A stretch of DNA of 32,860 bases from Bacteroidota bacterium (lineage in GTDB: Bacteria > Bacteroidota > Rhodothermia > Rhodothermales > JAHQVL01): positions 1-32,860 of the forward strand of contig JBCCIM010000054.1 in assembly GCA_039111535.1 (NCBI GenBank), read 5' to 3'. The notes under the pieces were generated by a model. It was not told the DNA's origin. It ran no database searches and saw nothing but the letters and a program-made list of their open reading frames with translations. How positions within the stretch are numbered: the first letter of the stretch is position 1; each line of letters begins with the position of its first letter. Below, one piece after another: positions 1,314 to 27,780 of this stretch. A program made the position numbers and the translations under genes.

Positions 1314-1508
1314 AATCTGTTATAAAAAGCTTGTTTAATAAAGAGATAGCTTAAATTTGGTAATCGGATCACATTCCGCCGGCTTAACTGCAATTTTCTA
1401 CAGGATCAATAGACAGCACGCTAAAAGTTGCTGAACAATCGTTGTTGGAAATCAGTATGTTTTCACTTCTACGACCTGATCCTCCACGTTCAAATACATC
1501 ACCTGGCT
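1314..1508. promoter_or_regulatory. Divergent intergenic region
   Basis: This 195 bp gap separates the minus-strand 414 aa gene from the plus-strand FG-GAP gene and must carry the promoters for both. It is A+T rich next to the minus-strand start (about 1320-1365). I see no convincing operator palindrome or Shine-Dalgarno sequence. An in-frame TTG at 1428 would extend the FG-GAP protein by 27 residues into this gap, but the signal peptide argues for the ATG at 1509. Confidence 0.4.
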
Positions 1509-4500
1509 ATGCGTATAGTGCCATGGTGCCGCATCGCTGCACTTCTTTGCATTGGTCTAACCTTTCCCGTTGCCCCGCTCTTGGCCCAGGTAAGCGTAAA
1601 ATTACTGGCATCTGAAGGGGCTGATTTTGATTACTTTGGCGAAGCTGTCGATATCGATGGGGACTATGCCATTGTGGGGAGTTGGCTCGATGACAATGCC
1701 CGAGGGAGGGACGCCGGCGCTGCCAGAATATTTCACCGGGTGGGCGCGGTGTGGGAAGAACAAGCGTTGCTGCTTGCATCGGATGGCGAGACCGGAGACC
1801 AGTTTGGCATTGCTGTAGCAATCAATGGTGACGTTGCGTTTGTGGGTGCACATCGGGATGACAATGTCAACGGCGCATTCGCCGGCGCCGTCTACATTTA
1901 TGAGCGATCCGGCGAGACCTGGACACAGCGTGAAAAAATTGTTGCCGGAGATGGTGCTTTTGATGATCGCTTTGGAGGAGCAGTTGCTTCAAGTGGAGAT
2001 CGTTTGCTGGTTGGGGCTATTGGGGTCAATGAAGGACGTGGCGGGGCTTATGTTTATCACCGCGCAGGGGGAGACTGGCTGTTTGTGAACCGCGTAACAA
2101 TTGCCGACGGGATGCCGGGTGATGCTTTTGGTGGTGCCGTTGCTATCGAAGCAGAAGCGGCCATTGTTGGGGCAGCTACCCGCGATGGTGGCGGAATTAC
2201 TGACGCCGGCGCCGCTTATGCGCTGGCCTTTAATGGTGTCCGGTGGATACAGCAACAGGAATTGATTGCTGCATCGCCAGGGTTAGACGGTATTTTTGGT
2301 AAAGCCGTTGCCATCACCGGTGACCAACTGCTTATTGGCGCACCCGAAGAAGATGTAGACGGTATTGAGAATGCTGGTGCGGCATATGTTTTTCAGTTTG
2401 ATGGCACTACCTGGACACAGCAAGCAAAACTGGGTGCATTAAATGCGGAAGCTGGAGATGCTTTTGGGTTTTCTGTGGCGATTGATGGTACATATGCCAT
2501 TGCTGGGGCACGCTGGGACCTGAACAACCAGGGCAGAAAGTCTGGTGCCGCCTACGTTTTTGTGGAGCGGAATGGGGCCTGGGAATCCGAAGCACGCCTG
2601 CTGGCTGGTGATGGCGATGTGGGCGACCAGTTTGGCAATGCCGTTGCCGTTAGCAATGAGCAAGTTATGGTTGGTGCACGCTGGGATGACAATGAGGTTG
2701 GCCAGGATGCCGGCGCAGCATACATTTTCCCGATTGGCGGATCGGGTGTGCCCTCGCTGTTGAGCAGCAGATCGCAGATCGATTTTTCGGCCCTGTCGGT
2801 TGGAGAAAGTGAGGCAGTTTCTTTTACAATCACCAATATCGGTACCGCCGATCTCAACGTACTCGGGATGGCAGTAGAGGGCGCGGGTGCCAGCAACTTT
2901 ACGGTCACCCAGGGAAGCAATAGCGTATTGCTCGCCCCACTGGCGAGTATTACAACAACGCTCTCCTTTTCTCCCGTGAGCCCGGGAGACAAAATGGCAA
3001 CACTACGTATCGAAAGTAACAGCCCCTCGAGTCCACACGAAGTTGCGCTGACGGGTAGTGGTACGGACGGACTACAGCCGGGGATTGCCAAGGTGATTGC
3101 TTTCCGTGGGGATGTGGAGTCTTATTTTGGCAGTACCGTATCTGTTCTGGGAGATTATGCCATTGTTGGCGCGGAAGGCCAGCGTGACACAGAGCCGGGG
3201 GCAGCTTACATCTACAAAAGATCAGGTGATACCTGGGTGCAAGAGCTGAGGATTTCATCACTCGATGGGGAGGCGGGCGACCGGTTTGGCAGTGCGGTGG
3301 ATATCAGCAGCACCCACGCCATTGTAGGGGCCTGGAGCGATGATAACGAAGCCGGCGCAGCATACATTTTTGTAAAAAGCGGGTCGGCCTGGATTCAACA
3401 GGCCAAGCTTATCGCCACGGATCGGGAAGCCGGAGACCGTTTTGGACAATCTGTTTCCATCGAAGGTACGCATGCCGTGGTAGGGGCCTGGCAAGATGAT
3501 AACATTCGAGGTTCAGGTGCCGGGGCAGCCTACATTTATAATTTGGAGGGGGGCACCTGGCAACAGCAATTCAAGCTCACCGCATCAGACGGACAGCAGG
3601 GCGACCGGTTTGGTAGCGCCGTTGCGGTGCAGGGTACGGATGTATTAATTGGTGCCGCCAATGGGGGATTCTTTGGTGAAGGTACCGCCTATGTGTATAG
3701 CCAGAATGGCTCCATTTGGCAGGAAAGCGGCCGGCTCTCAGCCTCTCAGGCCGGCTTGAGCGATGGCTTTGGAACCACCGTTGCGATTGAGGGCGATATT
3801 GCCGTGGTTGGCGCACCAATACATGACAACCAGTCTTCGATTGATGAAGGCGCTGTTTATGTCTTTGAAAAAGTTGGCACTGACTGGGTGGAGCGCGTCA
3901 AGCTGGCTGCGTCAGATGGGGCAAGCGGGTATGAGTTTGGTCGGGCGGTAGACATTGCCGGAGGCGAAATTGCAGTTGGTGCTGCGGGCGCTAACAACCA
4001 GCAAGGGGCAATGTACCTGTTTTCTCGTTCAGGAGACACCTGGTTTCAGACCAACATTGTCACAGCATCTGATGGAGACGCCGGCGATAAATTTGGGACA
4101 GCGCTGGCGTTTACCGGATTTGACATCATTACGGGCGCACCGGAAGACAACAACGTAAATGGTGTCCGCGCCGGCGTAGTATACATTTATTTGCGTGAAG
4201 GCGCCGGTTGGGAAGAACGGGCCCGCTTGCTGGCCTCGAGCCGGCTGGTGCAGCCTGCATTTGGTGCAGCCGTGGCTATTGATGGAGATTATGCCGTGGT
4301 TGGTGCAAAGGGAGATACCGGGGCACCTGGTGCTGCGTATGTGTATTTCCGGGAAGGAGAGAACTGGACGCAGCAAACAGAATTGTCAGCGTCAGATAGC
4401 CAGCCCGGCGACCAGTTTGGGGTTAGCGTTGCTATTTCTGGTGCCTACATCGTTGTAGGGGCGTCTGGGGATGACAACGAACGGGGGACCGATGCCGGCG

Positions 4501-5657
4501 CAGCGTATGTCTTTTTGAAAGGTAGCGAAACGTGGAGTGAGCAGGCGCGCCTCATTGCTGGTGATGGGGAAGGGGGAGATGCATTTGGTGGACAGGTCGC
4601 TATTGACGGTGACTTGATCGGTGTTGGTGCACCGCTTGACAACAATGTTCGTGGCGAAGATGCCGGCGGGGTTTATGTATTTCAGCGTTCGGGAGCCGCA
4701 TGGTTGCAGCAGGCCAAGGTAACAGCATCAGATGGTATTGCCGGCGACTTTTTCGGTGTCGGTCTAGATCTGCAGCAAACTACGCTGGTCGCTGGTGCAC
4801 CCAACGCAGGACTCTTCCAGAGTGGGGCAGTGTATGTGTATGAGCAAAATGGTGCAGCGTGGAACCAGGCTGCACGGTTGTCTGCTTCAAACGCTGAATC
4901 GGGGCAAGCGCTTGGAAGTGCTGTCGCGGTTGATGAAAACTACATTATAGTTGGTTCTGAGCAGCGAAAGGGAGACCGCGGCGCTGCTTACATATACCGC
5001 CGCACAGCAGGCGTGTGGGCTGAAACAGAAGAACTGACCATCGAACTCGCTGAAAGTGTGCCGGGAGATGGACTTGGCGGTGCAGTTGCCATCAGCGGCG
5101 TGTATGTACTGGTAGGTGGTCAGGGATTTGACAATGGGCGTGGTGCCGCATATTTGTTTGAACGTAGCGGCAGCAACTGGCTGCTTCAAACGCGCATCGA
5201 CCCACAAGATGAAGGGGGAGATGATGCATTCGGGCTTGCCGTGGCATTGCAGGGCGGGCACGCAGTGGTTGGTGCGCAGAATGACAACAACGGGAATGGT
5301 ATTGCAGCCGGCTCCGCGTATTTATTATCGCTTACCGGCCAGGTGTCGATTGTGGCAACGGAAGATGTGTTCATGGTTGATGATGCCGTTGTGCTGTACC
5401 CCAATTACCCGAATCCATTTGTCTCACAGACAACCATCCCATACGAGGTGACACAAGCCCAGCACATTTTGCTTGAGGTCTATGATATGTTGGGCCGGCA
5501 CGTTGCCACACTGGTTGATGAACAGCAAGCGCCGGGTGCCTACGCGGTAGCGTTGCAGTCCCTCTCGCTGGCAAGTGGCGTGTATTTTTGCCGGCTCAAG
5601 GGTGATGCCGGCGTATCTGCTGTGCAGAAGCTGGTCCGCATAGGTGCTGACCGGTAA
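1509..5657 (+). CDS. Giant secreted FG-GAP repeat protein with T9SS sorting domain
   Basis: This 1382-residue protein is predicted to be exported by Sec and then by the type IX secretion system. ATG 1509 gives a clean signal peptide (MRIVPWCRIAALLCIG then a stretch ending in LLAQ); the upstream TTG does not. Twenty-one FG-GAP-like repeats of 52-60 residues follow the pattern GDxFGxAVAIxGDxAIVGA, DDN, GAAYIF, GxxWxQQxKL. Seven precede and fourteen follow an Ig-like choice-of-anchor-D/Hydin-type domain (about residues 420-515). Integrin-type FG-GAP repeats form seven-bladed propellers, so 7 + 14 suggests three propellers (inference). The last 90 residues, from YPNYPNPF through VYDMLGRHVATLV to LASGVYF, are a T9SS type A sorting domain that directs surface attachment or release. 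Many repeats carry Asp/Asn-rich loops that could bind calcium. A role in adhesion or ligand binding is likely, but the target is unknown. Confidence 0.9.
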   Translation: MRIVPWCRIAALLCIGLTFPVAPLLAQVSVKLLASEGADFDYFGEAVDIDGDYAIVGSWLDDNARGRDAGAARIFHRVGAVWEEQALLLASDGETGDQFGIAVAINGDVAFVGAHRDDNVNGAFAGAVYIYERSGETWTQREKIVAGDGAFDDRFGGAVASSGDRLLVGAIGVNEGRGGAYVYHRAGGDWLFVNRVTIADGMPGDAFGGAVAIEAEAAIVGAATRDGGGITDAGAAYALAFNGVRWIQQQELIAASPGLDGIFGKAVAITGDQLLIGAPEEDVDGIENAGAAYVFQFDGTTWTQQAKLGALNAEAGDAFGFSVAIDGTYAIAGARWDLNNQGRKSGAAYVFVERNGAWESEARLLAGDGDVGDQFGNAVAVSNEQVMVGARWDDNEVGQDAGAAYIFPIGGSGVPSLLSSRSQIDFSALSVGESEAVSFTITNIGTADLNVLGMAVEGAGASNFTVTQGSNSVLLAPLASITTTLSFSPVSPGDKMATLRIESNSPSSPHEVALTGSGTDGLQPGIAKVIAFRGDVESYFGSTVSVLGDYAIVGAEGQRDTEPGAAYIYKRSGDTWVQELRISSLDGEAGDRFGSAVDISSTHAIVGAWSDDNEAGAAYIFVKSGSAWIQQAKLIATDREAGDRFGQSVSIEGTHAVVGAWQDDNIRGSGAGAAYIYNLEGGTWQQQFKLTASDGQQGDRFGSAVAVQGTDVLIGAANGGFFGEGTAYVYSQNGSIWQESGRLSASQAGLSDGFGTTVAIEGDIAVVGAPIHDNQSSIDEGAVYVFEKVGTDWVERVKLAASDGASGYEFGRAVDIAGGEIAVGAAGANNQQGAMYLFSRSGDTWFQTNIVTASDGDAGDKFGTALAFTGFDIITGAPEDNNVNGVRAGVVYIYLREGAGWEERARLLASSRLVQPAFGAAVAIDGDYAVVGAKGDTGAPGAAYVYFREGENWTQQTELSASDSQPGDQFGVSVAISGAYIVVGASGDDNERGTDAGAAYVFLKGSETWSEQARLIAGDGEGGDAFGGQVAIDGDLIGVGAPLDNNVRGEDAGGVYVFQRSGAAWLQQAKVTASDGIAGDFFGVGLDLQQTTLVAGAPNAGLFQSGAVYVYEQNGAAWNQAARLSASNAESGQALGSAVAVDENYIIVGSEQRKGDRGAAYIYRRTAGVWAETEELTIELAESVPGDGLGGAVAISGVYVLVGGQGFDNGRGAAYLFERSGSNWLLQTRIDPQDEGGDDAFGLAVALQGGHAVVGAQNDNNGNGIAAGSAYLLSLTGQVSIVATEDVFMVDDAVVLYPNYPNPFVSQTTIPYEVTQAQHILLEVYDMLGRHVATLVDEQQAPGAYAVALQSLSLASGVYFCRLKGDAGVSAVQKLVRIGADR

Positions 5658-16664: not shown

Positions 16665-17909
16665 CTACTCATAACGCAGCGACTCAACAGGATCGACGTT
16701 TGCAGCTTTGCGTGCCGGGAAGAAGCCGGCGAGTAATCCAATTACTGATAAGATGGCCACCGTGGTCATGGCAATTGGGGTGGAAATTTCAGGGTTGGCC
16801 AGGAATTGGAGCGCACCTTCCTTGTTGGGAATGCTTTGTATAGCAGTGACCACGGCATAGGAAAAGAGCAATCCAATAGCGCCACCTGATAGCGCAATCA
16901 GCAGCGACTCGAAGATGACCTGCAACTTGATATGATATTTACGAGCGCCGAGAGCCAGTTTGACACCAAACTCTCTCGTGCGCTCTTTTACTGTCACGTA
17001 CATGATGTTGGCCACGCCAACGCCCGCAAGGAGTAGCGTCAGGCCACCCACTACGCCGAGGAAGATCTGGATCCCGAGAAACACCTTGGCCCCTTCCTTT
17101 TCATTTTCGATAAAGTCCCAGATACCCAGTGCGCGTTCATCGCTTGCATCAAATTTGTGCCGTCGACCGAGTACGCGATACAACTCTTCTTTTACAGCCG
17201 GCGCAACATCAACGTTACTCGGACGGATCACCATGTGGTTGATGTACCGGTAACCGTAAATCGTTTCAAAAGTCTGTGATGGAATAATGGCGCGGTTGGC
17301 GTCAGGGCCATTGTTCATGCTCGTTTGCAGCTTGGGCTGCATAATGCCAATCACAGTGAATGGGAGCCCGTCGAGCAACACTTGTCCGCCTACAGGCTCC
17401 TGGTCGCCAAAGAGCCGGCCGGCAATTTCGTCACCAAGAAACAGGACGCGACGCTTCTGTGCTTCATCCTTCATGTTAAGGAAGCGTCCGCCAGCGGCAG
17501 GAAACATGCGCCGCATTTCTTCGAATGCCGGGCTCACGCCTTCCATATAGGCAGTGGTTTTGTTTTTACCCACCTGCAGCGATACTCCCCATCGACCATA
17601 AGAGACGCTGCCCATATCGATGCCGGGAATGGTTTTCTGTACAAGTGCCAGGTCGTCCCTGCGTAAACGGATGTTTCTGCCTTTGTCGAGGCCTTCATAG
17701 GGTAGGCTGGTTTCTCCTCCGTATACCTGAAAGATTTTGTCGCCGGCATTAAGCAGGCCATCTTGCATCGTTTTACCCAATCCTTCGCCAAAGGCAAGCA
17801 GCAAAACCACAGAAATGGTGCCCCAGGTGATGGCAAAGATGGTCAGGAACGCGCGTGTTTTCTGCGTGCGCAGGTCATTCCAGAATTCTTGCAGTAAGAT
17901 CTTCCACAT
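16665..17909 (-). CDS. MacB/FtsX-like ABC transporter permease
   Basis: This 414-residue inner-membrane protein has the MacB topology: one N-terminal helix (about 20-42, in TRAFLTIFAITWGTISVVLL), a MacB-type periplasmic core domain (about 45-260), then the FtsX domain with three helices (about 285-405). FtsX signatures are GVGVANIMYVTVKERTREFG, then VKLALGARK, and GFFPARKAANVDPVESLRYE at the C-terminus. There is no nucleotide-binding domain. It is the last gene of a three-gene minus-strand set (adaptor, permease, permease), 55 bp after the other permease, to which it is clearly paralogous. MacB-type systems move substrates or transmit mechanical force from a cytoplasmic ATPase to the periplasm; the substrate is unknown here. 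Confidence 0.92.
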   Translation of the reverse strand: MWKILLQEFWNDLRTQKTRAFLTIFAITWGTISVVLLLAFGEGLGKTMQDGLLNAGDKIFQVYGGETSLPYEGLDKGRNIRLRRDDLALVQKTIPGIDMGSVSYGRWGVSLQVGKNKTTAYMEGVSPAFEEMRRMFPAAGGRFLNMKDEAQKRRVLFLGDEIAGRLFGDQEPVGGQVLLDGLPFTVIGIMQPKLQTSMNNGPDANRAIIPSQTFETIYGYRYINHMVIRPSNVDVAPAVKEELYRVLGRRHKFDASDERALGIWDFIENEKEGAKVFLGIQIFLGVVGGLTLLLAGVGVANIMYVTVKERTREFGVKLALGARKYHIKLQVIFESLLIALSGGAIGLLFSYAVVTAIQSIPNKEGALQFLANPEISTPIAMTTVAILSVIGLLAGFFPARKAANVDPVESLRYE

Positions 17910-17964
17910 GGGATAGGGGTGTTATGGGTTACCGGTTAAGGTTTCTGGGAATTTTACAGTTTGT

Positions 17965-19194
17965 TTAGGTCCGCAGGCATTCTACCGGATCCAGTTGGGC
18001 TGCTTTGCGTGCCGGGAAGAAGCCGGCGAGTAACGCAATAAACGCGAGCAATGTCATGGTAACCAGGGCAACAAGCGGTGAAAGTTGTGGAATACCCACA
18101 AAGTCCTCAATGGGCAGGAACGAGATCCCTTTGATCAGCAGCATGGCCAGCATAAAGCCAAGCGCTGCTCCCATACCCACAATCAGAAAAGTCTCCAGGA
18201 AAAACTGGAAAAGGATATCACGGCTTGTTGCGCCAACCGACCGTTTGATCCCAATTTCTTTGGTGCGTTCACGGACAACCACGTACATGATGTTGGCAAC
18301 CCCAATACCACCTACGGTGAGGGTAAAGCTGCCGATGATGCCCATGAAAATGTTGAACCCGAGGAAGAAGTTTTTCAGGAATACGTCCGCTTCGTTCGTG
18401 TCCCACACTCCGAGGGCATCGTCATCATCCGGATTGAATCTGTTGCGCCGGCCCATTACTTCCATTAGCCGCCGTTCAACCTGCGCCGTCATATCCGGAT
18501 CGCTGGGGCGATAGATGATATTGTTGATGTACCGATCGCCAAACATGGTGCGGTAAGTGCTCGCGGGGATAAACACACGGTCGCTGTCGCGCGAATTGTA
18601 CGAAGAGTTCTGGGTTTTGGGCTGCATTTGCCCAATGACCGTAAACGGCGTTTCTCCGATCATAACCTGTTGTCCAACGGCAGTTGAATCGCCAAAGAGC
18701 AGGTTTTTGATTTCATTTCCCAGCATCACCACACGCCGGCGCTTCTGCATGTCGATTTCGTTTATAAACCGACCGCCGGGTTCAGCTATGATGTTTCGCA
18801 TATCCGCATACACCGGGTAGATACCGGTGACAGCCGGCGACGTGGCTGACCGCCCTTTGCGAATGGTGGTGTAGTTCAGGTACTCCGGACTAATCTGATA
18901 AATTTCAGGAATCTCTGAATCCAGTACGGGGACATCTTCTTCACGAAGATTAATTCGCCGTCCGTCCGGGAAGCCTTCGTAAGGCATGGTTGTGCGACCG
19001 CCAAAGACAACGACGATGCCGTCTCCCATGCCGTGCATGTTTTTCTTGGACTGTTTTTCCAGGCCAACCCCAAAAGCGAGCAAAACAACAACAGCCACCG
19101 TACCCCAGGTAATCCCGAGGATGGTGAGTGCTGTTCTAAGCTTCTGGGATCTAAGATCCTGAAAGAACTGGGAAAGGGTGGTGAATAGACGCAT
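17965..19194 (-). CDS. MacB/FtsX-like ABC transporter permease
   Basis: The chosen start is ATG 19194 (MRLFTTLSQFFQDLRSQKLR); a TTG 11 codons upstream is unnecessary. The 409-residue protein has an N-terminal helix (TALTILGITWGTVAVVVLLA), a MacB-like periplasmic domain (about 50-260) and a three-helix FtsX domain with GGIGVANIMYVVVRERTKEI, then GIKRSVGATSRDI, and the end GFFPARKAAQLDPVECLRT. It is the sister of the next gene downstream; the two probably form a heterodimer. It lies 88 bp after the adaptor gene. No ATP-binding subunit is encoded in between or beside it. Confidence 0.92.
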   Translation of the reverse strand: MRLFTTLSQFFQDLRSQKLRTALTILGITWGTVAVVVLLAFGVGLEKQSKKNMHGMGDGIVVVFGGRTTMPYEGFPDGRRINLREEDVPVLDSEIPEIYQISPEYLNYTTIRKGRSATSPAVTGIYPVYADMRNIIAEPGGRFINEIDMQKRRRVVMLGNEIKNLLFGDSTAVGQQVMIGETPFTVIGQMQPKTQNSSYNSRDSDRVFIPASTYRTMFGDRYINNIIYRPSDPDMTAQVERRLMEVMGRRNRFNPDDDDALGVWDTNEADVFLKNFFLGFNIFMGIIGSFTLTVGGIGVANIMYVVVRERTKEIGIKRSVGATSRDILFQFFLETFLIVGMGAALGFMLAMLLIKGISFLPIEDFVGIPQLSPLVALVTMTLLAFIALLAGFFPARKAAQLDPVECLRT

Positions 19195-19282
19195 GTCGAA
19201 TGCTGATTTTCGCGTGCCGAATGCCAATTGGGTTTAAAAGATGGGGAGCGCCCCGGGCAAGCCACTTGGCGCTTGTTCTTCG

Positions 19283-20416
19283 CTACTCAATTACTTTTGG
19301 TGGCTTCTCACGGACACGTACACCTTCTTCGAGCCCGGACAGCACTTCGATGCTGATGGCATCGCTCAATCCGGTTTCAATAATGCGTTCTTCGAGGGAA
19401 TTGTCAGCCAGCAGGATATTCACCCGTGCCGTATCGTTGGCAAAGTCGATCACGCGTTCTGGAATCAACAATACCTGCTCGCGTTTCTCGATAATGATTT
19501 CTGCGTTGGCTGAGTAGCCAGCGCGGAGAATCACTTCTTTCGGATTCCCTTCTGGCATGAGCAGGTCCTTTTCTGTAGCGCTCAGGATTTCAAGCTCAAC
19601 CGGGAATACCGTTGAATTGTCTTCTTTTTCAGCTTTGAGCCAAATTTTAGCAAGAATGCCGGCGACTGTTGCGCTTGGCAGGGCGCCTACCTTGATGTCG
19701 GTATTCATGCCTTCCTCCAGCCGGCCTACGTCAATTTCGTCTACGGTGCCCCGGAAGATCAGGTCGTCCATGTTTGCCATGGTCATCAATACCGTACCCT
19801 CCTGGAAGGAGGTCAGCGGGACAATGTTGTCACCGATTTCAACCATTTTGTCGAGAATAAACCCGCTCACAGGCGCCCGAACAACAGATTCGAATACACC
19901 TTTTTCTGTTGATACCTGTCCCTTTTTCAAGAGCTCAAGAGCTTCCTGTGCCATCTGAACCTGCAACTTGGCTTCGTCGTAGCTCCGCGCGGCGCGCTCA
20001 TAATCCTGGTTGGAAATGAGTTGCTTGTCGTGCAGGGCTTTCTGGCGGTCATATTCCATTTTCAGGTTGCGCACTTCAAGCTCGCGTAATTCAATTTGCC
20101 GCTCTGCGTCAACGAGCTCTTTGGGGGTCGGCGTTGGCCTGATTTCGAGCAGCGGGTCGCCGGCGCGGACAAAGTCACCTACATCAGCAAACTGGCGCTT
20201 GGCAACACCTGAGAATTGAGATTTTACGCTGACTTCTACCCGTGGCTCAATGGTGCCAACAGCCAGCGCTTTGTCTACGATATCACCGCGCTCAACGGTG
20301 ATGTGGGGAATTTCTTCTTCGCCGTCCTTGTTGTTATTGTTGTAAGCATAAACAGATGCGGCCGCGATGGCACCAACAACAAGCAGGGTAAGTACAATTT
20401 TGCCTGTACGCTTCAT
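19283..20416 (-). CDS. MacA/HlyD-like periplasmic adaptor protein
   Basis: This 377-residue membrane-fusion protein starts at ATG 20416 with an N-terminal anchor (KIVLTLLVVGAIAAASVYAY). A lipoyl-like half motif (residues about 45-95, VKSQFSGVAKRQFADVGDFV) is followed by an alpha-hairpin (about 100-165, rich in Glu/Leu/Lys heptads) and the second lipoyl half (VVRAPVSGFILDKMVEIGDN). A beta-barrel and membrane-proximal domain complete it. It would bridge the inner-membrane ABC permeases to an outer-membrane channel. It is the first gene of the adaptor-permease-permease set. No TolC-like partner is in this operon; the one at 21990-23486 belongs to the divergent RND operon but might be shared (inference). 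Confidence 0.92.
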   Translation of the reverse strand: MKRTGKIVLTLLVVGAIAAASVYAYNNNNKDGEEEIPHITVERGDIVDKALAVGTIEPRVEVSVKSQFSGVAKRQFADVGDFVRAGDPLLEIRPTPTPKELVDAERQIELRELEVRNLKMEYDRQKALHDKQLISNQDYERAARSYDEAKLQVQMAQEALELLKKGQVSTEKGVFESVVRAPVSGFILDKMVEIGDNIVPLTSFQEGTVLMTMANMDDLIFRGTVDEIDVGRLEEGMNTDIKVGALPSATVAGILAKIWLKAEKEDNSTVFPVELEILSATEKDLLMPEGNPKEVILRAGYSANAEIIIEKREQVLLIPERVIDFANDTARVNILLADNSLEERIIETGLSDAISIEVLSGLEEGVRVREKPPKVIE

Positions 20417-20579: not shown

Positions 20580-21107
20580 TCACCCCGCTTCGATTTTTGC
20601 TATAATCCCGAGGTGGTGGCGCTTGTGGTTTTGCATAAATCGCAGCCATTCCAGTGCTGTCAGTGGCCCAAAAAAGAGGTGCGGGAAAAGGCGCGGGATT
20701 CCTTCGAGTTCATCAAGCAGCGGTTCTACACGTGTGATTGCTTTGGTCATGCGGCCCCAATCCCGTTTGAGGAGTCCATGGTCCAAATTGTCTGGTGGTC
20801 GGACTTGCTCGGGCGCAGTTCGTCCTCCTGGCACTTTCCCTTCATAGATCACTTGCAACCGTTCCGGAATGCCTGCTAATGTGTCGTCACCCAGCCGGCC
20901 GCTGTGTAATCGCTCGATCAGTCGGGGGATGGAGCCGTGCGCGAGCGCCAGATGGTACAGGTGATGCCCGATAGACCAGCCCGAAACTGCTGCTTTTACC
21001 TCGAATAATTTTTCTGCTGGCCACGCCACGTAACCGGCGCCTTGCTCTACCAGGGATTGCAGGGCTGCATAATTCTCGTGCGGTTCCAGACTCGGATCAT
21101 ATGCCAT
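20580..21107 (-). CDS. DinB-fold putative metal-dependent protein
   Basis: This 175-residue protein matches the DinB/YfiT four-helix-bundle superfamily by its His pattern. SGWSIGHHLYHLALAH (His48, His49, His52, His57) and NHKRHHLGII (His161, His164, His165) can provide the three-histidine metal site of this fold. Family members include thiol-S-transferases such as bacillithiol and mycothiol enzymes, and stress-induced proteins of unknown activity. There is no signal peptide, so it is cytoplasmic. It lies 163 bp upstream of the adaptor gene on the same strand and is divergent from tetR, so it could be the first gene of the efflux operon or a separate unit. A detoxification role beside efflux genes is an inference. 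Confidence 0.8.
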   Translation of the reverse strand: MAYDPSLEPHENYAALQSLVEQGAGYVAWPAEKLFEVKAAVSGWSIGHHLYHLALAHGSIPRLIERLHSGRLGDDTLAGIPERLQVIYEGKVPGGRTAPEQVRPPDNLDHGLLKRDWGRMTKAITRVEPLLDELEGIPRLFPHLFFGPLTALEWLRFMQNHKRHHLGIIAKIEAG

Positions 21108-21306
21108 AGCTACGCTCAGTTCTTCTTGATCTATTAGGTTAGCTCGCGCTTCCAGTTTACGCGAATCAGCGCAGGGAAAATATCGAATGTGCCACTGAAT
21201 AACACCTCTGATAAAAAATTATCCTCCGGCTGCAACTTCTTTATTGTACTCCTGTACAACCGTTGACAAAGTGTCAATGAGTTGATTCGGAGTAACCTGT
21301 AAACCC
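21108..21306. promoter_or_regulatory. Divergent control region, DinB-fold gene / tetR
   Basis: This 199 bp region must carry the promoters of the minus-strand DinB-fold gene and of the plus-strand tetR gene. A palindromic operator candidate lies at 21261-21280 near the tetR start. No matching palindrome is seen near the DinB-fold start. Confidence 0.5.
21261..21280. promoter_or_regulatory. TetR operator candidate 1
   Basis: CGTTGACAAAGTGTCAATGA contains the palindrome TTGACA-AAG-TGTCAA. It lies 26 bp before the tetR ATG at 21307. The same 20-base word with three changes recurs before the tolC gene at 21967-21986. Autoregulation by TetR proteins through palindromes near their own start is the rule for the family. 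Confidence 0.75.
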
Positions 21307-21951
21307 ATGTTAATGTCTACCCTTGAGCGCCGGCAAGAAGAGAAAGAACAGCGTCGAAATGATATTATCGATGCTGCTGAGGTTGTGTTCGCGCAAAAGG
21401 GTGTTGACAAGGCAACCATGGCTGATGTGGCAAAAGAAGCGCGGTTGAGCCGAGGTTTGATTTATTTTTATTTCAAAGATAAAGAAGATCTGTATCTGGC
21501 TATTATGGTACGCGCATCGCGCGGATTGCGGGAGGCTTTTGAACAGGCAGTTACAGATGAGATGCGGGGATTCGAAAAAATTACGGCGATGGGGCGTGCT
21601 TATGTGCGTTTTTCCAAAGAGCAGCCGGCCTACTTCCATGCGTTAACCGAGTTTGAGACCCGCACCATTAACTTTGAAGAGCCTATCGAGAGCGAAGTCG
21701 CCTGCCTGGCTGAGGGTAATAAAGTGCTTGAACTGATGGCACGCGTAATTGCTGAAGGGATGCAGGATGGGTCAATTCGTCAAGATATTGGTGATCCGAT
21801 GAAAGCCAGTGTTTGCCTCTGGGGATTCACACATGGGATCATTCAAATTGTGGCAAAAAAGCAAGACATGTTCACGCATGTACTGCAGGTTGATCCGGAT
21901 GCATTGATTACACAGGCGTTTGATATGATGGAACGCTCACTGGCATCTTAA
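21307..21951 (+). CDS. TetR/AcrR-family transcriptional repressor
   Basis: This 214-residue protein starts at ATG 21307 or 21313. The TetR_N helix-turn-helix spans about residues 15-65 (RRNDIIDAAEVVFAQKGVDK, then TMADVAKEARLSRGLIYFYF and KDKEDLY), a textbook match. The all-helical C-terminal part should bind the inducer and dimerise. It is the first gene of a plus-strand set with a TolC-like channel, an adaptor and an RND permease, with a 38 bp gap to tolC. Two near-identical palindromes, before its own gene and before tolC, suggest that it represses itself and the pump until a pump substrate binds (inference from family behaviour). Confidence 0.95.
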   Translation: MLMSTLERRQEEKEQRRNDIIDAAEVVFAQKGVDKATMADVAKEARLSRGLIYFYFKDKEDLYLAIMVRASRGLREAFEQAVTDEMRGFEKITAMGRAYVRFSKEQPAYFHALTEFETRTINFEEPIESEVACLAEGNKVLELMARVIAEGMQDGSIRQDIGDPMKASVCLWGFTHGIIQIVAKKQDMFTHVLQVDPDALITQAFDMMERSLAS

Positions 21952-21966
21952 AAAATTTGTCCTACC

Positions 21967-21986
21967 CGTTGACAAAACGTCAATAA
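21967..21986. promoter_or_regulatory. TetR operator candidate 2
   Basis: CGTTGACAAAACGTCAATAA matches operator candidate 1 at 17 of 20 positions and keeps TTGAC and GTCAA in inverted order. It ends three bases before the annotated tolC ATG, so a bound dimer would block the start region. If the true start is the ATG at 22008, the site sits more normally in the leader. Confidence 0.75.
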
Positions 21987-21989
21987 CTG

Positions 21990-23486
21990 ATGAAACGTCA
22001 AGAATTAATGATTTGCTTATATAGAACAGGCCGCCCACTGGCTTTTAGCATCTGGTTTGCGGGCCTCTTTGTATACACTTTTTTGTTCACGGCACCGGCT
22101 GTTTATGGACAAGAAAGTCCACTTGATGACTACTTACGCGAGGGGTTAACCAACAACCTGTCGCTCCAGGAACAGCAATTCGACGTTGAAAAGAGTTTTC
22201 GCGCGATGGATGAAGCCCGTGGCCTCTTTTTTCCTGAAGTGAGCATCGAAGCACGTTACTCACGCGCCGGCGGCGGGCGGCAGATTTCGTTTCCTGTAGG
22301 CGACTTGCTCAACCCGGTTTATAATACGCTTAACGACATGCTGTCGCAGCAGGGAGAGCTCCCAATCTTTCCACAACTGGAAAATCAGGATATCGGATTT
22401 TTGCGGGATCGCGAACAGGAAAGTAAAATCCGATTGATTCAACCGCTGTTCCAGCCGGCTATTCTACATAACTATCGGTTGCAGCAGCATTTGCTGGGTT
22501 CGCAAGAAGCTGCACTGGATGCCTACAAGCAGTTGCTGATGCGCGATATAAAGGTGGCCTATTACAACTACTTGAAGGCTGAGAAAGCCACAGGGATTCT
22601 TGATGCTGCCCGTGACCTCGTGGATGAAAACCTGCGGGTTAACGAACGGCTTGTTGAATACGACAAAGCAACCCAGGATGCCGTTTATCGCGCACGGGCT
22701 GAGATGCTGGCTGTAGCCCAACAGCAACGAGAGTCGGTGAAGAACAAGGATCTGGCGCAGTCTTATTTCAATTTCTTGCTCAATCGGCCATTTGAAGAAA
22801 ACATTGATCAGGCAGATGAGGGCCTGTTGATGGCTGCTGTGGAGGCGCCGGCCGCGCGGCTGATTCCTGCTTCTGCTACCGTTACTACACCGTCAGCCCA
22901 GGCAGCTTTCACCCGGCTTGCGCTGCAAAACCGCTATGAGCTAAAACAACTTGAAGCCGCCATCAGCGCTTCGAATGCTGCGGTGAACATCTCAAAAAGT
23001 GATCTGCTGCCCGGCGTTGCGTTTGCACTCGATCTTGGGATCCAGGGATCTTCTTATGGTTTTGCCGGCGACCAGTCCTTTTACATGGCCTCGGTGGTAT
23101 TTAGCTGGAAATTGTTCAATGGCTTCCAGAACCGCAACCGGATACAACAGGCGCGCATCGAAAGCCAAAAACTTACTACGCAGCACGAGGCGCTGCAACA
23201 GCAGATCAAACTGCAGGTGCAGGAAGCGTTCGACAATCTTGAGGTTGCCCGCGAGTCGTATTTGACGGCACAACAGCGGTTGACAGCTTCTTCGGAAGGG
23301 TACCGGCTGGTTTCTCGGCGGTACGACGAGGGGATGGCCAATCAGGTAACGTTCCTTGACGCACGTACCACGCTTACCGAAGCAGAAATCAACCTCAACC
23401 TCACACGCTATGACGTTCTGATCCGCATGGCGGAATTGGAATATGCGGTCGCTGTAAACCAGGCCCCGGAATCGGCCAACCCCTAA
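21990..23486 (+). CDS. TolC-family outer-membrane efflux channel
   Basis: This 498-residue outer-membrane protein has two OEP repeats. The signal peptide runs to about residue 41 (FAGLFVYTFLFTAPAVYGQ). ATG 22008 (MICLYRTGRPLAFSIW) is an alternative start that would leave room between the operator and the gene. The mature protein has long coiled-coil helices (DAYKQLLMRDIKVAYYNYLK and LTTQHEALQQQIKLQVQEAF) and short beta-strands, and ends with the family pattern DEGMANQVTFLDARTTLTEA. As a trimer it would form the outer-membrane and periplasmic duct for the RND pump encoded just downstream, and could also serve the ABC system upstream. Confidence 0.93.
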   Translation: MKRQELMICLYRTGRPLAFSIWFAGLFVYTFLFTAPAVYGQESPLDDYLREGLTNNLSLQEQQFDVEKSFRAMDEARGLFFPEVSIEARYSRAGGGRQISFPVGDLLNPVYNTLNDMLSQQGELPIFPQLENQDIGFLRDREQESKIRLIQPLFQPAILHNYRLQQHLLGSQEAALDAYKQLLMRDIKVAYYNYLKAEKATGILDAARDLVDENLRVNERLVEYDKATQDAVYRARAEMLAVAQQQRESVKNKDLAQSYFNFLLNRPFEENIDQADEGLLMAAVEAPAARLIPASATVTTPSAQAAFTRLALQNRYELKQLEAAISASNAAVNISKSDLLPGVAFALDLGIQGSSYGFAGDQSFYMASVVFSWKLFNGFQNRNRIQQARIESQKLTTQHEALQQQIKLQVQEAFDNLEVARESYLTAQQRLTASSEGYRLVSRRYDEGMANQVTFLDARTTLTEAEINLNLTRYDVLIRMAELEYAVAVNQAPESANP

Positions 23487-23521
23487 TCACCTTTCTATAT
23501 AAATTGCCAACCCATACCATC

Positions 23522-24655
23522 ATGAAAACCCTGGTCAATCTCATACATCGCGTATCTGGTCTTCCAAAAAACCACGCTGCTCATTTGACGGCTAGACAAT
23601 CTTGGACTGTTGCTGTAGTACTGATTGTACTCGGTGGCAGTTTTGCTGCGGGTTGTGGTCAGGATGTGGATGCCGGTGCTACTGCTACAACTGTTGCACC
23701 AGTAAACATCTTTGTCCAAGACGTGAGCAAGGAAAAGCGTGCACTACCCATTCGTTCGAGCGGCCGGCTGGCAACCAAGGCTGAAGTTCGGTTATCCTTC
23801 AAAATTGGCGGGTATATCGAACGGGTTTTTGTGGATGAAGGCCGGCGTGTGAAAAAGGGGACCCGCCTGGCGCGACTCAACCTGTCTGAAATTGATGCGC
23901 AGGTCTTACAGGCAAAAAGCGGGGTAGAAAAAGCCACCCGCGATCTGGAGCGAGCTGAAGGTTTGTACACAGACTCGGTAGCGACCCTGGAGCAGGTACA
24001 AGATGCGCGCACGGCCCTGGATGTGGCTGCTGCAAATCTGAAAATTGCCGATTTCAACCGGGCGTACGCAGAAATCTACGCGCCGGCGAGCGGCCGCATC
24101 TTGAAACGCACAGCTGAAGCGGGTGAATTGGTGGGTCCCGGACAACCGATTTATCTCTTTGGCGCGGATCGGGGTGGATGGGTTGTCCGCGTCGGCTTGG
24201 CCGATCAAGACATTGTTAAGCTGGCCATTGGCGACTCAGCATCGCTGTCGTTTGATGCTTATCCGGATGAGCAGTTCAAAGGGACGGTGACGGAGCTTGC
24301 GGATGCAGCTGATCCGATGAGTGGTACCTTCGAAGTAGAAATTGCGGTCAACGACCCGATGAATCTGCTCAAGTCCGGGTTTATTGCACGCGTAGATGTT
24401 TATCCATCTCGGGGTGAATCGCTGTACTTCTTGCCCATCGAAGCCCTGGTTGAAGGAAATGGCGAAGAGGGGATTGTGTATGTGTACGACGAGAATGAAA
24501 ACAAGGCGCGAAAAATTCCTGTGCAAATTGAGCGGATGCTGGATGCCGAAATTGCTGTGTCTGGCGATCTTGGCGGATACACGCAAATCGTTACGGAAGG
24601 TGCGGCTTTTATAAACGGTGACGGCCCTGTCCGGGTGATGCCGGCCACAGAGTAG
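23522..24655 (+). CDS. RND efflux periplasmic adaptor, lipoprotein
   Basis: The chosen start is ATG 23522; an in-frame TTG at 23504 is not needed. This 377-residue membrane-fusion protein has a signal ending in a lipobox (GGSFAAGC, Cys45), so it should be lipid-anchored in the periplasm like AcrA. The order is barrel strand and lipoyl half (KIGGYIERVFVDEGRRVKKG), a short alpha-hairpin (about residues 120-175), the second lipoyl half (EIYAPASGRILKRTAEAGEL), a beta-barrel (about 210-290) and a membrane-proximal domain. The 35 bp gap after tolC and 80 bp before the permease support one operon. It couples the RND permease to the TolC-like channel. Confidence 0.94.
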   Translation: MKTLVNLIHRVSGLPKNHAAHLTARQSWTVAVVLIVLGGSFAAGCGQDVDAGATATTVAPVNIFVQDVSKEKRALPIRSSGRLATKAEVRLSFKIGGYIERVFVDEGRRVKKGTRLARLNLSEIDAQVLQAKSGVEKATRDLERAEGLYTDSVATLEQVQDARTALDVAAANLKIADFNRAYAEIYAPASGRILKRTAEAGELVGPGQPIYLFGADRGGWVVRVGLADQDIVKLAIGDSASLSFDAYPDEQFKGTVTELADAADPMSGTFEVEIAVNDPMNLLKSGFIARVDVYPSRGESLYFLPIEALVEGNGEEGIVYVYDENENKARKIPVQIERMLDAEIAVSGDLGGYTQIVTEGAAFINGDGPVRVMPATE

Positions 24656-24735: not shown

Positions 24736-27700
24736 ATGAGACTGCCCGCTCTTGCAATACAAAATTACCAGTTTACGATCATCATGGTATTGCTCCTTTC
24801 CCTGGTGGGATTGGTGAGCTTCCTGACGATGCCACGTTCTGAAGACCCGCCCATTGATGCGCCGGGTACCCGTATTCTTGTTGTCTACCCGGGCGCTAGT
24901 CCGGAAGACATTGAGAGCCTTGTGATTGACCCGATTGAGGAGGCCGTCAACGCATTGGATGATCTGAAAGAAATCCAGTCAACGGCACAGAATGGTCTTG
25001 GTGATATTGTAGTAGAATTTATCGCCAGTGAAGACCCCGATGATACGTACGATGAAGTTAACCAGGCGGTCAATGGTATCCGCGACAATTTGCCGGCTGG
25101 TATCCTGGCGATCGAAACGTTGAAGTTCTCAACGGCGGATGTCATCATAATGCAGATTGCGCTGATGTCGGAGCAGGTAAGCTACACCATCCTCGAAAAG
25201 GAGGCTGAAAAACTGGAGCGGCAGTTCGAACGCGTTTCGGGCGTGATGCAGGCGGATATCTGGGCCTTCCCGGAAACGGAAGTACGCGTATCGCTGGATC
25301 TGGAAAAAATGAAAGAAATGCGCATTTCGATGGACCAAATCATCGGTGCGGTACAGTCGAGTAGCCAGAACATCCCCGGCGGCAGCGTAGACCTTGGTGC
25401 CCGCCGGTTCAACATTCAGACAAGCGGTGACTATGAATCACTCGACGACATCCGGCAAACCATCGTTGCCACAAACGGTCAGCGGGTTGTTTACCTGAAT
25501 GATATCGCGGATGTTGATTTTGACTATGAAGATGACACGTACCGCGGGCGCTACAATGGCCGGCGCAGTGTGTTTGTGACTGTTGCCCAGCGCACCGGGA
25601 CCAACATCTACGATGTGAAGGCCGGCCTCGATGAGGCGCTAGCATCCTTTGGCGCACAATTGCCAGAAGGCGTCGAAATGGAAACGGTATTCGATCAGTC
25701 CGTTGGAGTAACGGAGCGTGTCAATGGCTTCTTTAATAACCTGTTTCAGGGCGTGTTACTTGTTGGGCTCGTCATCCTGCTAGCGCTTGGCGTCCGGGCT
25801 TCCGGTATCGTAGTTCTGGCTATCCCGGTATCAATTCTGATTGCGATTGGCTGGCTGGATTTTTCGGGGTATGGGATCCAGCAGATGTCGATTGTCGGGT
25901 TGGTGGTGGCCCTTGGGTTATTGGTTGACAATGCTATCGTCGTGACCGAGAATGTGGCGCGTTACCGTAAACAGGGACTGGATGGATTTGAGGCCGCGCT
26001 CAAAGGCACAAAAGAAGTTGGCTGGGCCATTATGGCTGCCACCGTTACCACGGTGCTTTCCTTTTTGCCGATTGTGCTGATTCAGAATGACAGCGGCGAC
26101 TACATCAGAAGCATGCCAATGACGGTGATCTTTGCGCTGATTGCGTCGCTGTTTGTGTCGTTGACCATGACACCCTTTTTATCGAGTCGACTACTCCGGA
26201 ATCAGGCAAAAACTACCCGCAAGCCAGTATTGCAAGGCGTGTTAGCGCGACTCGTGGCGGGACCGTACCGGCGGGTTTTGCGTGGCGCCATAAAGCGGCC
26301 GTTTGTGGTGCTTGTGCTAGCATTTACAATTTTTGCCGGCAGTCTCATGCTCTTCCCACTTGTTGGCGTTTCCCTGTTTCCGAAAGCGGAAAAACCGCTG
26401 TTCTATATCAACATAGAAATGTCTGATGGGGCAACGCTCGACCATACAGATGCGGCAGTGCGTACCGTGGAAGAGATATTGGCGACGCAAGACGAGGTGG
26501 TGGGGTATGCCTCGAATATCGGCAACGATAACCCCCGTTTCTATTACAACGTATTACCACGCGGCAAGAAGAGTAACATCGGGCAGGTTTTGGTTTCCGT
26601 TGAGAGCCTGGACAAAGTGCCGGGATTGATTCGGCGGTTGAAAGGCGAATTTGCTGAAGTCACCGGGGCAGATATCGATATCCTCGAACTGGAAAATGGG
26701 CCGCCCATTGAAGCACCTATCGCGATCAAGGTGATTGGGCCGGACAATGAGGTGATAAAACGGATTTCAGGGGATCTCGAAAACATAATGCTGGCCACTG
26801 AGGGCACAGAAAATGTTAATAATCCGCTGCGTTCCAATAAAACAGACCTACACGTTCGCATCAATCGCGACAAAGCCGGCTTGTTGGGTATTCCACTTGT
26901 AGAAATCGACCGTACCGTGCGTGCCAGCATGGCTGGGCTACCTGTGGGCACGTACCGGGATCCGAGTGGCGATGAACATAACATCGTAGCGCGTCTGCCT
27001 TTGGACGATCGTCCGGGGATGGAAGATTTCGACCGAATTTCTGTGACGTCGTTTATGGGAGCCAGCATTCCTTTGCGTCAGGTTGCTGATGTAGAACTGG
27101 AAGCCGTGCCTACCCGGATCGACCACTTCAATCTGGAGCGTACAGCAACAGTGACGTCGTATGTACAGGAGGGGTATTCTGATTTTGAGCTAACGGCCCA
27201 GATTTTGGAGGATGTTGAAGCGTACGATTGGCCGGTTGGCTATCGCTATTACGTGGCAGGAAAGCAGGAGGCACAGCAGGAAAGCTTTGGCGGGATGGCC
27301 TCAGCGCTGGTTGTGGCACTGCTGGGTATTCTGGGCGTTCTCGTTCTCCAGTTCCGGTCTTTCAGTCAGCCCCTTATCATCATTGTAGCTGTACCGCTGG
27401 CTATCATCGGATCCATCCCGGCGCTGTTGATCACGGGTTTTACGTTCAGCTTCTCCGCATTTATTGGGCTGACCAGCCTGGTTGGGATTGTTGTTAACAA
27501 CTCGATCATACTGGTGGACTATGCTAACAAGTTAATTGCTTCGGGTAAATCTGTAATAGAAGCAGTTGTCGAAGCAGGCGAAACGCGGTTTAGTCCGATT
27601 ATTCTAACTTCGCTAACCACCATTGGGGGCCTGCTCCCGCTTACTCTTACCAACTCTACCATGTGGAGCCCAATGGGATGGGTGATCATTGGCGGTCTGG

Positions 27701-27780
27701 TGGCTTCAACAGCGCTAACGTTGATTGTTGTGCCGGTGTTGTACAAGCTCTTCACGCCCCAGGTTAAGGTTGAAAGTTAA
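24736..27780 (+). CDS. RND-family efflux permease (AcrB/HAE1-like)
   Basis: This 1014-residue proton-driven inner-membrane pump has the duplicated RND layout: TM1 (about 13-32), a large periplasmic domain, TM2-7 (about 335-530, with an inter-half segment), a second periplasmic domain (about 545-850) and TM8-12 to the end. The TM4 proton-relay motif reads GLLVDNAIVV (Asp398-Asn399), where AcrB has two Asp. The TM10 position of AcrB Lys940 falls in GIVVNNSIILVDYAN (Asn921-Asn922). These variants occur in AcrB-like pumps of this broader group. Substrates cannot be predicted. The gene ends the operon and is followed by a long hairpin. Confidence 0.96.
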   Translation: MRLPALAIQNYQFTIIMVLLLSLVGLVSFLTMPRSEDPPIDAPGTRILVVYPGASPEDIESLVIDPIEEAVNALDDLKEIQSTAQNGLGDIVVEFIASEDPDDTYDEVNQAVNGIRDNLPAGILAIETLKFSTADVIIMQIALMSEQVSYTILEKEAEKLERQFERVSGVMQADIWAFPETEVRVSLDLEKMKEMRISMDQIIGAVQSSSQNIPGGSVDLGARRFNIQTSGDYESLDDIRQTIVATNGQRVVYLNDIADVDFDYEDDTYRGRYNGRRSVFVTVAQRTGTNIYDVKAGLDEALASFGAQLPEGVEMETVFDQSVGVTERVNGFFNNLFQGVLLVGLVILLALGVRASGIVVLAIPVSILIAIGWLDFSGYGIQQMSIVGLVVALGLLVDNAIVVTENVARYRKQGLDGFEAALKGTKEVGWAIMAATVTTVLSFLPIVLIQNDSGDYIRSMPMTVIFALIASLFVSLTMTPFLSSRLLRNQAKTTRKPVLQGVLARLVAGPYRRVLRGAIKRPFVVLVLAFTIFAGSLMLFPLVGVSLFPKAEKPLFYINIEMSDGATLDHTDAAVRTVEEILATQDEVVGYASNIGNDNPRFYYNVLPRGKKSNIGQVLVSVESLDKVPGLIRRLKGEFAEVTGADIDILELENGPPIEAPIAIKVIGPDNEVIKRISGDLENIMLATEGTENVNNPLRSNKTDLHVRINRDKAGLLGIPLVEIDRTVRASMAGLPVGTYRDPSGDEHNIVARLPLDDRPGMEDFDRISVTSFMGASIPLRQVADVELEAVPTRIDHFNLERTATVTSYVQEGYSDFELTAQILEDVEAYDWPVGYRYYVAGKQEAQQESFGGMASALVVALLGILGVLVLQFRSFSQPLIIIVAVPLAIIGSIPALLITGFTFSFSAFIGLTSLVGIVVNNSIILVDYANKLIASGKSVIEAVVEAGETRFSPIILTSLTTIGGLLPLTLTNSTMWSPMGWVIIGGLVASTALTLIVVPVLYKLFTPQVKVES

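Follow-up and report, generated by a model that had tools for sequence, protein, structure and literature searches.

In this study, we have analyzed a stretch of 32,860 nucleotides (the window) from a Bacteroidota bacterium of the order Rhodothermales and have found two near-identical palindromes, one before a tetR gene and one between that gene and the tolC-like gene of an RND efflux pump, which are very probably operators for the TetR-family regulator whose gene lies between the two. The computations show the sites to be unique in the genome, conserved in both placement and sequence, and matched in their variation to the recognition helix of the regulator; the features concerned are listed in Table 1.

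Table 1. Genes, putative operators and associated features of the tetR-pump locus in the window
Feature	Positions	Strand	Sequence or basis
DinB-superfamily gene, divergent from tetR	20580..21107	-	Pfam DinB_2 2e-6
Probable weak partner of site 1, 18 bp upstream	21245..21258	.	TGTACTCCTGTACA, 9/12 to TRGACA-N2-TGTCYA
Site 1, putative operator before tetR	21261..21280	.	CGTTGACAAAGTGTCAATGA; core 21263-21277 TTGACAAAGTGTCAA, perfect palindrome
tetR, TetR/AcrR-family regulator gene, 212 aa	21313..21951	+	Pfam, AlphaFold model, homologue starts
A6T3 tract, 10 bp upstream of site 2	21950..21958	+	Where about half of homologous loci have a T6-8 run
Site 2, putative operator between tetR and tolC	21967..21986	.	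CGTTGACAAAACGTCAATAA; core 21969-21983 TTGACAAAACGTCAA
Probable weak partner of site 2, 18 bp downstream, overlaps tolC start	21987..22001	.	CTGATGAAACGTCAA, 8/12
tolC-like outer-membrane efflux protein gene	21990..23486	+	Pfam OEP 2e-46
RND periplasmic adaptor (membrane-fusion protein) gene	23504..24655	+	NCBIfam RND_mfp 6.1e-53, above cutoff
RND permease gene (AcrB/AcrD/AcrF family)	24736..27780	+	Pfam ACR_tran 1.5e-198

The order of genes on the forward strand is tetR, tolC-like gene, membrane-fusion protein and RND permease, with the DinB gene upstream in the opposite direction. The likely start of tetR is the ATG at 21313, which aligns with the starts of homologues (the listed open reading frame begins at 21307); its stop codon occupies 21949-21951, and 38 bp separate it from the tolC ATG at 21990. 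At least one of the three pump proteins was matched downstream on the same strand in 73 of the 80 homologous loci from a scan of GTDB genomes. The protein has the TetR_N (PF00440, 2.3e-17) and TetR_C_33 (PF13305, 1.1e-8) domains of Pfam, both above cutoff, and its AlphaFold model (pLDDT 96) shows the standard all-helical TetR fold, with helices 36-43 and 47-53 as the helix-turn-helix. With this N-terminal helix-turn-helix and fold it belongs to the TetR/AcrR family, and with its gene placed beside outer-membrane, adaptor and RND permease genes in a conserved neighborhood, it is a predicted local TetR regulator of an RND pump.

Within that family, the protein stands apart from the named groups. 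Twenty-three NCBIfam subfamily models match it (AcrR, MtrR, BetI, FadR, ScbR, RutR and others), all far below their cutoffs, the best being ScbR with 60 of the 150 bits required. Foldseek returned TetR-type regulators such as DarR and FadR as best matches, the top 50 hits being 14 to 25% identical, and no close relative with a solved structure was found among PDB sequences (best match E 6.6e-19, 72 bits). The recognition-helix motif is ARLSRGLIYFYF, with R44, S46 and R47; since helix 3 comprises residues 47-53 in the model, these three residues lie at the start of the recognition helix.

An earlier note on this DNA had reported that the two 20-mers agree at 17 of 20 positions and that both contain an inverted TTGAC/GTCAA, and this description proved exact, positions included. 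Their shared 15-bp core is TTGACA-N3-TGTCAA, with TTGAC-N5-GTCAA inside both; site 1 (TTGACA-AAG-TGTCAA) is perfect, and site 2 (TTGACA-AAA-CGTCAA) has one asymmetric base. Between the end of site 1 and the likely tetR ATG there are 32 bp; site 2, between the tetR stop codon and tolC, ends 3 bp before the tolC ATG. The claim that such a pair is very unlikely by chance held for the spaced inverted repeat, which occurs in the window at these two places only (0.04 expected from shuffles), as does the 20-mer motif at up to three mismatches (2 matches, 0.03 expected). It did not hold for the 17/20 identity, which was rejected as evidence by itself because the window contains 202 direct register pairs of 20-mers that are at least as similar. 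In the whole 6.59-Mb genome, the 20-mer motif at up to three mismatches occurs only at sites 1 and 2, and a reversed control pattern occurs six times; the evidence therefore lies in the position and not in the number alone, and the 20-mer was also rejected as a genome-wide regulon signal. Of the perfect palindrome, this genome has a single copy, site 1. Allowing one mismatch, the 12-base palindrome finds site 2 and 12 other places versus 11 for the control, and 11 of those 12 lie inside open reading frames of at least 100 aa. It is thus the palindromy, placement and conservation of the sites that carry weight. Judged from the sequence, the predicted regulon in this genome is this locus alone, with no sign of a wider one.

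Both sites occur at the same places, before tetR and about 20 to 30 bp after its stop codon, in two genomes of the same family (G001 and G002) and in one of the same order (G008), and the core of site 1 is identical in the two same-family genomes while most of the flanking bases differ. Fifteen genomes of the order were then taken from 60; 11 of them have a homologue of the TetR protein (37 to 63% identity), and 4 have no close homologue. The perfect palindrome occurs 11 times in these 15 relatives, 10 times within about 2.2 kb of tetR and once elsewhere in G050, so that with the single copy in our own genome 11 of the 12 perfect palindromes in 16 genomes of the order lie at the tetR-pump locus. 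It was absent from all four of the examined genomes without a close TetR homologue. It was also absent from G023 and G045, which have an ELSKGL-type TetR, and from G014, G024 and G033, yet the TetR proteins of these three are 41 to 44% identical and have an EVSRS or ELSRS helix. The motif is therefore neither unrelated to tetR nor lost in close relatives, and this specificity for the locus, together with its conservation, supports the earlier prediction of TetR operators that would provide both autoregulation and separate control of the pump genes. No wider regulon was seen in Rhodothermota apart from extra sites in Salinivenus, where two more perfect N3 palindromes, 26 bp apart, precede an open reading frame that looks SnoaL/NTF2-like by eye (L060, 4863-4903; L071, 4747-4787), about 1.5 to 2 kb upstream of tetR.

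The earlier note had also advised looking for the motif before the DinB-fold or adaptor genes. Beyond the DinB gene and heading away from tetR, the reverse strand at 16665-20416 carries an HlyD-type (MacA-like) adaptor gene and two open reading frames that by eye are MacB-like permeases, and no copy of the operator was found before these genes. The divergent dinB could share site 1 and is a possible, unproven further target; a dinB homologue is present at one (L033) of the four related loci checked, the flanks of two loci (L005 and L011) spanning only 1.5 kb. Elsewhere in the window, positions 1428-5657 encode a long FG-GAP-like secreted protein with an apparent C-terminal sorting tail, recognized by eye.

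To the 80 loci of the GTDB scan we added the window, L005 (from G001) and L011 (from G031), and the resulting 83 loci fall by recognition helix into 70 of R type (xR[LV]SR), 10 with ELSKGT, 2 with ELSKGL and 1 other. An upstream site (up to two mismatches, within 150 bp of tetR) is present at 61 of the 70 R-type loci, 34 times in perfect form, versus 0.43 in dinucleotide shuffles; the other nine lack one at this threshold. Downstream, between -20 and +160 around the tetR stop codon, 16 of the 70 have a site of the N3 form (0.38 expected from shuffles), and another 36 have a form that is one base shorter, TRGACA-N2-TGTCYA (about 1 expected), a count that is favored because this N2 form was read off the same loci before being counted. 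The fixed position of the N2 form is separate support for these sites. A downstream site of either form is thus found at 52 R-type loci and none at 18, and 47 have both upstream and downstream sites. The downstream N3 form belongs to Rhodothermota and Verrucomicrobiota, and the N2 form to Pseudomonadota. One exact N2-type palindrome, TAGACAAATGTCTA, was seen away from the tetR locus in G002 (C267, 6031-6044).

The operator appears to change with the regulator, because N3 sites are lacking at ELSKGT loci (0 of 10) and a different motif, TTGACY-N3-RGTCAA, stands at the corresponding places in genomes of the ELSKGL type (G023, G045 and G050), before tetR and before the pump genes, the exact copy in G050 being before the pump genes only. 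All eight exact copies in these three genomes lie at the tetR-pump locus, and five further copies are scattered in G000, G002 and G016. Several ELSKGT loci have a TGACT-N3-RGTCA-like palindrome upstream instead, which was seen and not counted. On the TetR tree, helix types change three times and the state of the downstream site seven times, and the Rhodothermota and Verrucomicrobiota regulators, with N3 downstream sites, group together, as do those of Pseudomonadota with N2; with so few independent changes, the agreement between helix and operator partly reflects shared descent.

The control regions may also hold a second dimer site. Across loci, weaker partners of the strong sites stand out over other offsets in a fixed register, which is -18 on the tetR side (z 4.9 with the N2 probe) and +18 (z 6.0) or +19 (z 5.1) on the side of the pump genes; the window's own partners are weak. 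Just upstream of site 1, and enclosing its weak partner, is a palindrome at 21244-21259, TTGTACTCCTGTACAA. In two same-family genomes its left 13 bases do not vary, but its right arm does; it may be part of a promoter, a weak partner operator or both. A run of six to eight T residues follows tetR at 36 of the 70 R-type loci, compared with 3 of 350 random 40-mers from the loci, and in all 35 of the T-run loci with a second operator it ends 9 or 10 bp (30 and 5 cases) before that operator. We partly rejected the view that these runs are terminators only, as convincing hairpins (z <= -1.5) accompany just 14 of the 36; since the run keeps its distance from the operator even where no hairpin is found, a role in a promoter or in DNA structure is likelier at many loci. 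Some relatives do have true hairpin terminators after tetR (L034, L035 and most Limnobacter loci), and there the terminator separates two units. At L034 (7630-7700) and in Limnobacter (e.g., L066, L070, L076 and L084), a strong hairpin with T8 directly follows tetR and ends 9 bp before the second operator, as if one T-run served both the terminator and the promoter after it.

In Pseudomonadota, the upstream operator coincides in its left half with a -35 box, and TAnnnT follows 17 to 19 bp downstream in 40 of 49 loci, compared with 0 to 9 of 49 at seven other spacings; 17 bp separate a TTGnCC box from TAA, and the downstream operator lies in this interval. At the sites of the window itself, the search for sigma-70-like promoters found none (3.2 expected by chance). 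A GCAACY-N17-TANAAS pattern, conserved upstream of site 1 in three same-family genomes, was noticed by eye and is a promoter suggestion only. Among R-type loci with an estimable start, using the earliest possible starts, the first pump gene mostly abuts tetR where the second site is missing (median gap -0.5 bp, n = 14), and the median gaps are 61.5 and 25 bp where it is present (n = 10 and 32), which is the pattern to be anticipated for a second site that acts on a promoter. We consider that the pump genes probably have a promoter of their own and that tetR and pump form two adjoining transcription units. The earlier note had placed the separate control within a single operon: a second site does stand before the pump genes, and the terminators of relatives and the promoter layout in Pseudomonadota make "within" doubtful.

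We envision that a TetR dimer would most likely bind TTGACA-N3-TGTCAA before tetR, repressing its own gene, and likewise before tolC, where it would repress a promoter belonging to the tolC-adaptor-RND operon alone. Cooperativity may come from another dimer bound more weakly, at 18 bp from the main site in each control region, and both promoters would be relieved at once when TetR takes up a substrate of the pump or a metabolite. We propose more tentatively, as a possibility about which we are in some doubt, that a single cassette extends across Rhodothermota, Verrucomicrobiota and Pseudomonadota, made up of operator, tetR, a T/A tract at 9 to 10 bp (except in Verrucomicrobiota), second operator and pump genes. 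The same kind of regulator would read the N3 and N2 forms, with two dimers per control region in an 18- to 19-bp register, so that the tetR and pump promoters could be tuned apart by geometry, and exchanging R for E and K where the recognition helix begins would re-code TTGACA to TTGACY or TGACT.

Other readings of the same sites deserve weight in different measure. It is unlikely, although still worth considering, that the sites are TetR operators but that a single transcript, begun at the tetR promoter, covers both tetR and the pump genes, with site 2 acting as a roadblock or as an auxiliary (looping) operator. The short 38-bp gap without a clear terminator, the lack of a promoter-like site there in our scans and the overlap of the weak partner with the tolC start codon all fit such an arrangement in the window; however, the hairpin terminators of some relatives, the constant spacing of the T-run, the promoter-like layout around the second site in Pseudomonadota and the lack of that site at most loci without a gap speak for two units. 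That the regulator binds these sites as an activator, or as a dual regulator, is improbable. The Pseudomonadota operators overlap the -35 element, spacer and -10 element, the usual place for repression, and most studied TetR-type regulators are described in the source texts as repressors (PMC3511530, PMC4335029). Repression is nevertheless not certain here, since VexR of Vibrio cholerae, encoded by the first gene of a TetR-RND operon of similar order and uniform direction, is reported to be required for activation (PMC4335029).

We give very little credence to the two readings in which this TetR protein does not act at the palindromes. One would make them -35 boxes or other promoter parts with chance symmetry: TTGACA is indeed the sigma-70 -35 consensus and, in Pseudomonadota, stands at the proper distance before TAnnnT, but a promoter has no need of the TGTCAA right half, our own genome has no promoter-like match there, and the perfect palindrome is hardly seen outside loci that have this type of TetR and changes with its helix. 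The other would assign the sites to a regulator encoded elsewhere, which draws on the fact that binding by the adjacent TetR is only predicted; against it, in three phyla the sites occur together with the neighboring tetR and vary with it, and perfect copies are missing from the examined genomes of the order without a close homologue. Binding by the adjacent TetR protein remains our preferred reading.

If upheld, these data would provide an operator rule, open to testing, for regulators of RND pumps that form a widespread group outside the named NCBIfam subfamilies, as well as two operator geometries that occur in nature and are read by the same kind of protein. Regulon prediction would become possible in Rhodothermota, Opitutia, Lysobacterales and Limnobacter, and one could test directly how the half-site is determined by the residues with which the recognition helix begins. 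No paper on such an operator in these four groups was found in a search that excluded subscription journals and preprints.

In the Tn10 TetR/TetA system, the genes are divergent, both operators lie in one intergenic region and the pump is of the MFS type. The likeness to our locus is that a single regulator acts at two operators, of which one is near the regulator gene and the other near the pump gene (PMC3511530). AcrR/AcrAB of Escherichia coli also has a local TetR-type regulator of an RND pump that acts on its own gene as well (PMC4335029); it differs in its divergent arrangement, and our TetR protein scores 48 bits on the NCBIfam AcrR model, whose cutoff is 271. In CmeR-CmeABC of Campylobacter jejuni, a TetR-type gene lies directly upstream of the pump, and its inverted repeat lies in the pump promoter (PMC4488513). 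However, cmeR shares a transcript with Cj0369c, the promoter of which contains another inverted repeat of unknown meaning, and no matching second CmeR site before cmeR is described in the text consulted (PMC4488513), the operators being compared by description. VexR/VexAB of V. cholerae likewise has a TetR-type gene as the first of an RND operon in one direction, whose product binds the promoter before itself; unlike our proposal, it is described as having one promoter for three genes, an activator and no outer-membrane gene in the operon (PMC4335029). The possible pairs of dimers would have parallels in QacR of Staphylococcus, which is described as binding in this way with more than one dimer-sized site per control region, and in PA3973 of Pseudomonas aeruginosa, whose own -10 is covered by a palindrome together with a pseudopalindrome (PMC9736018). 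Both have other operator sequences, and PA3973 is credited there with more than 300 sites in its genome (PMC9736018), whereas two are predicted for our TetR protein. In conclusion, the type of switch is ordinary, a local TetR regulator of an RND pump in the manner of CmeR; what is new, as far as we have searched, is the family of operators with its two geometries, as well as the depth to which the predicted two-site layout, unusually well conserved across distant bacterial groups, can be followed.
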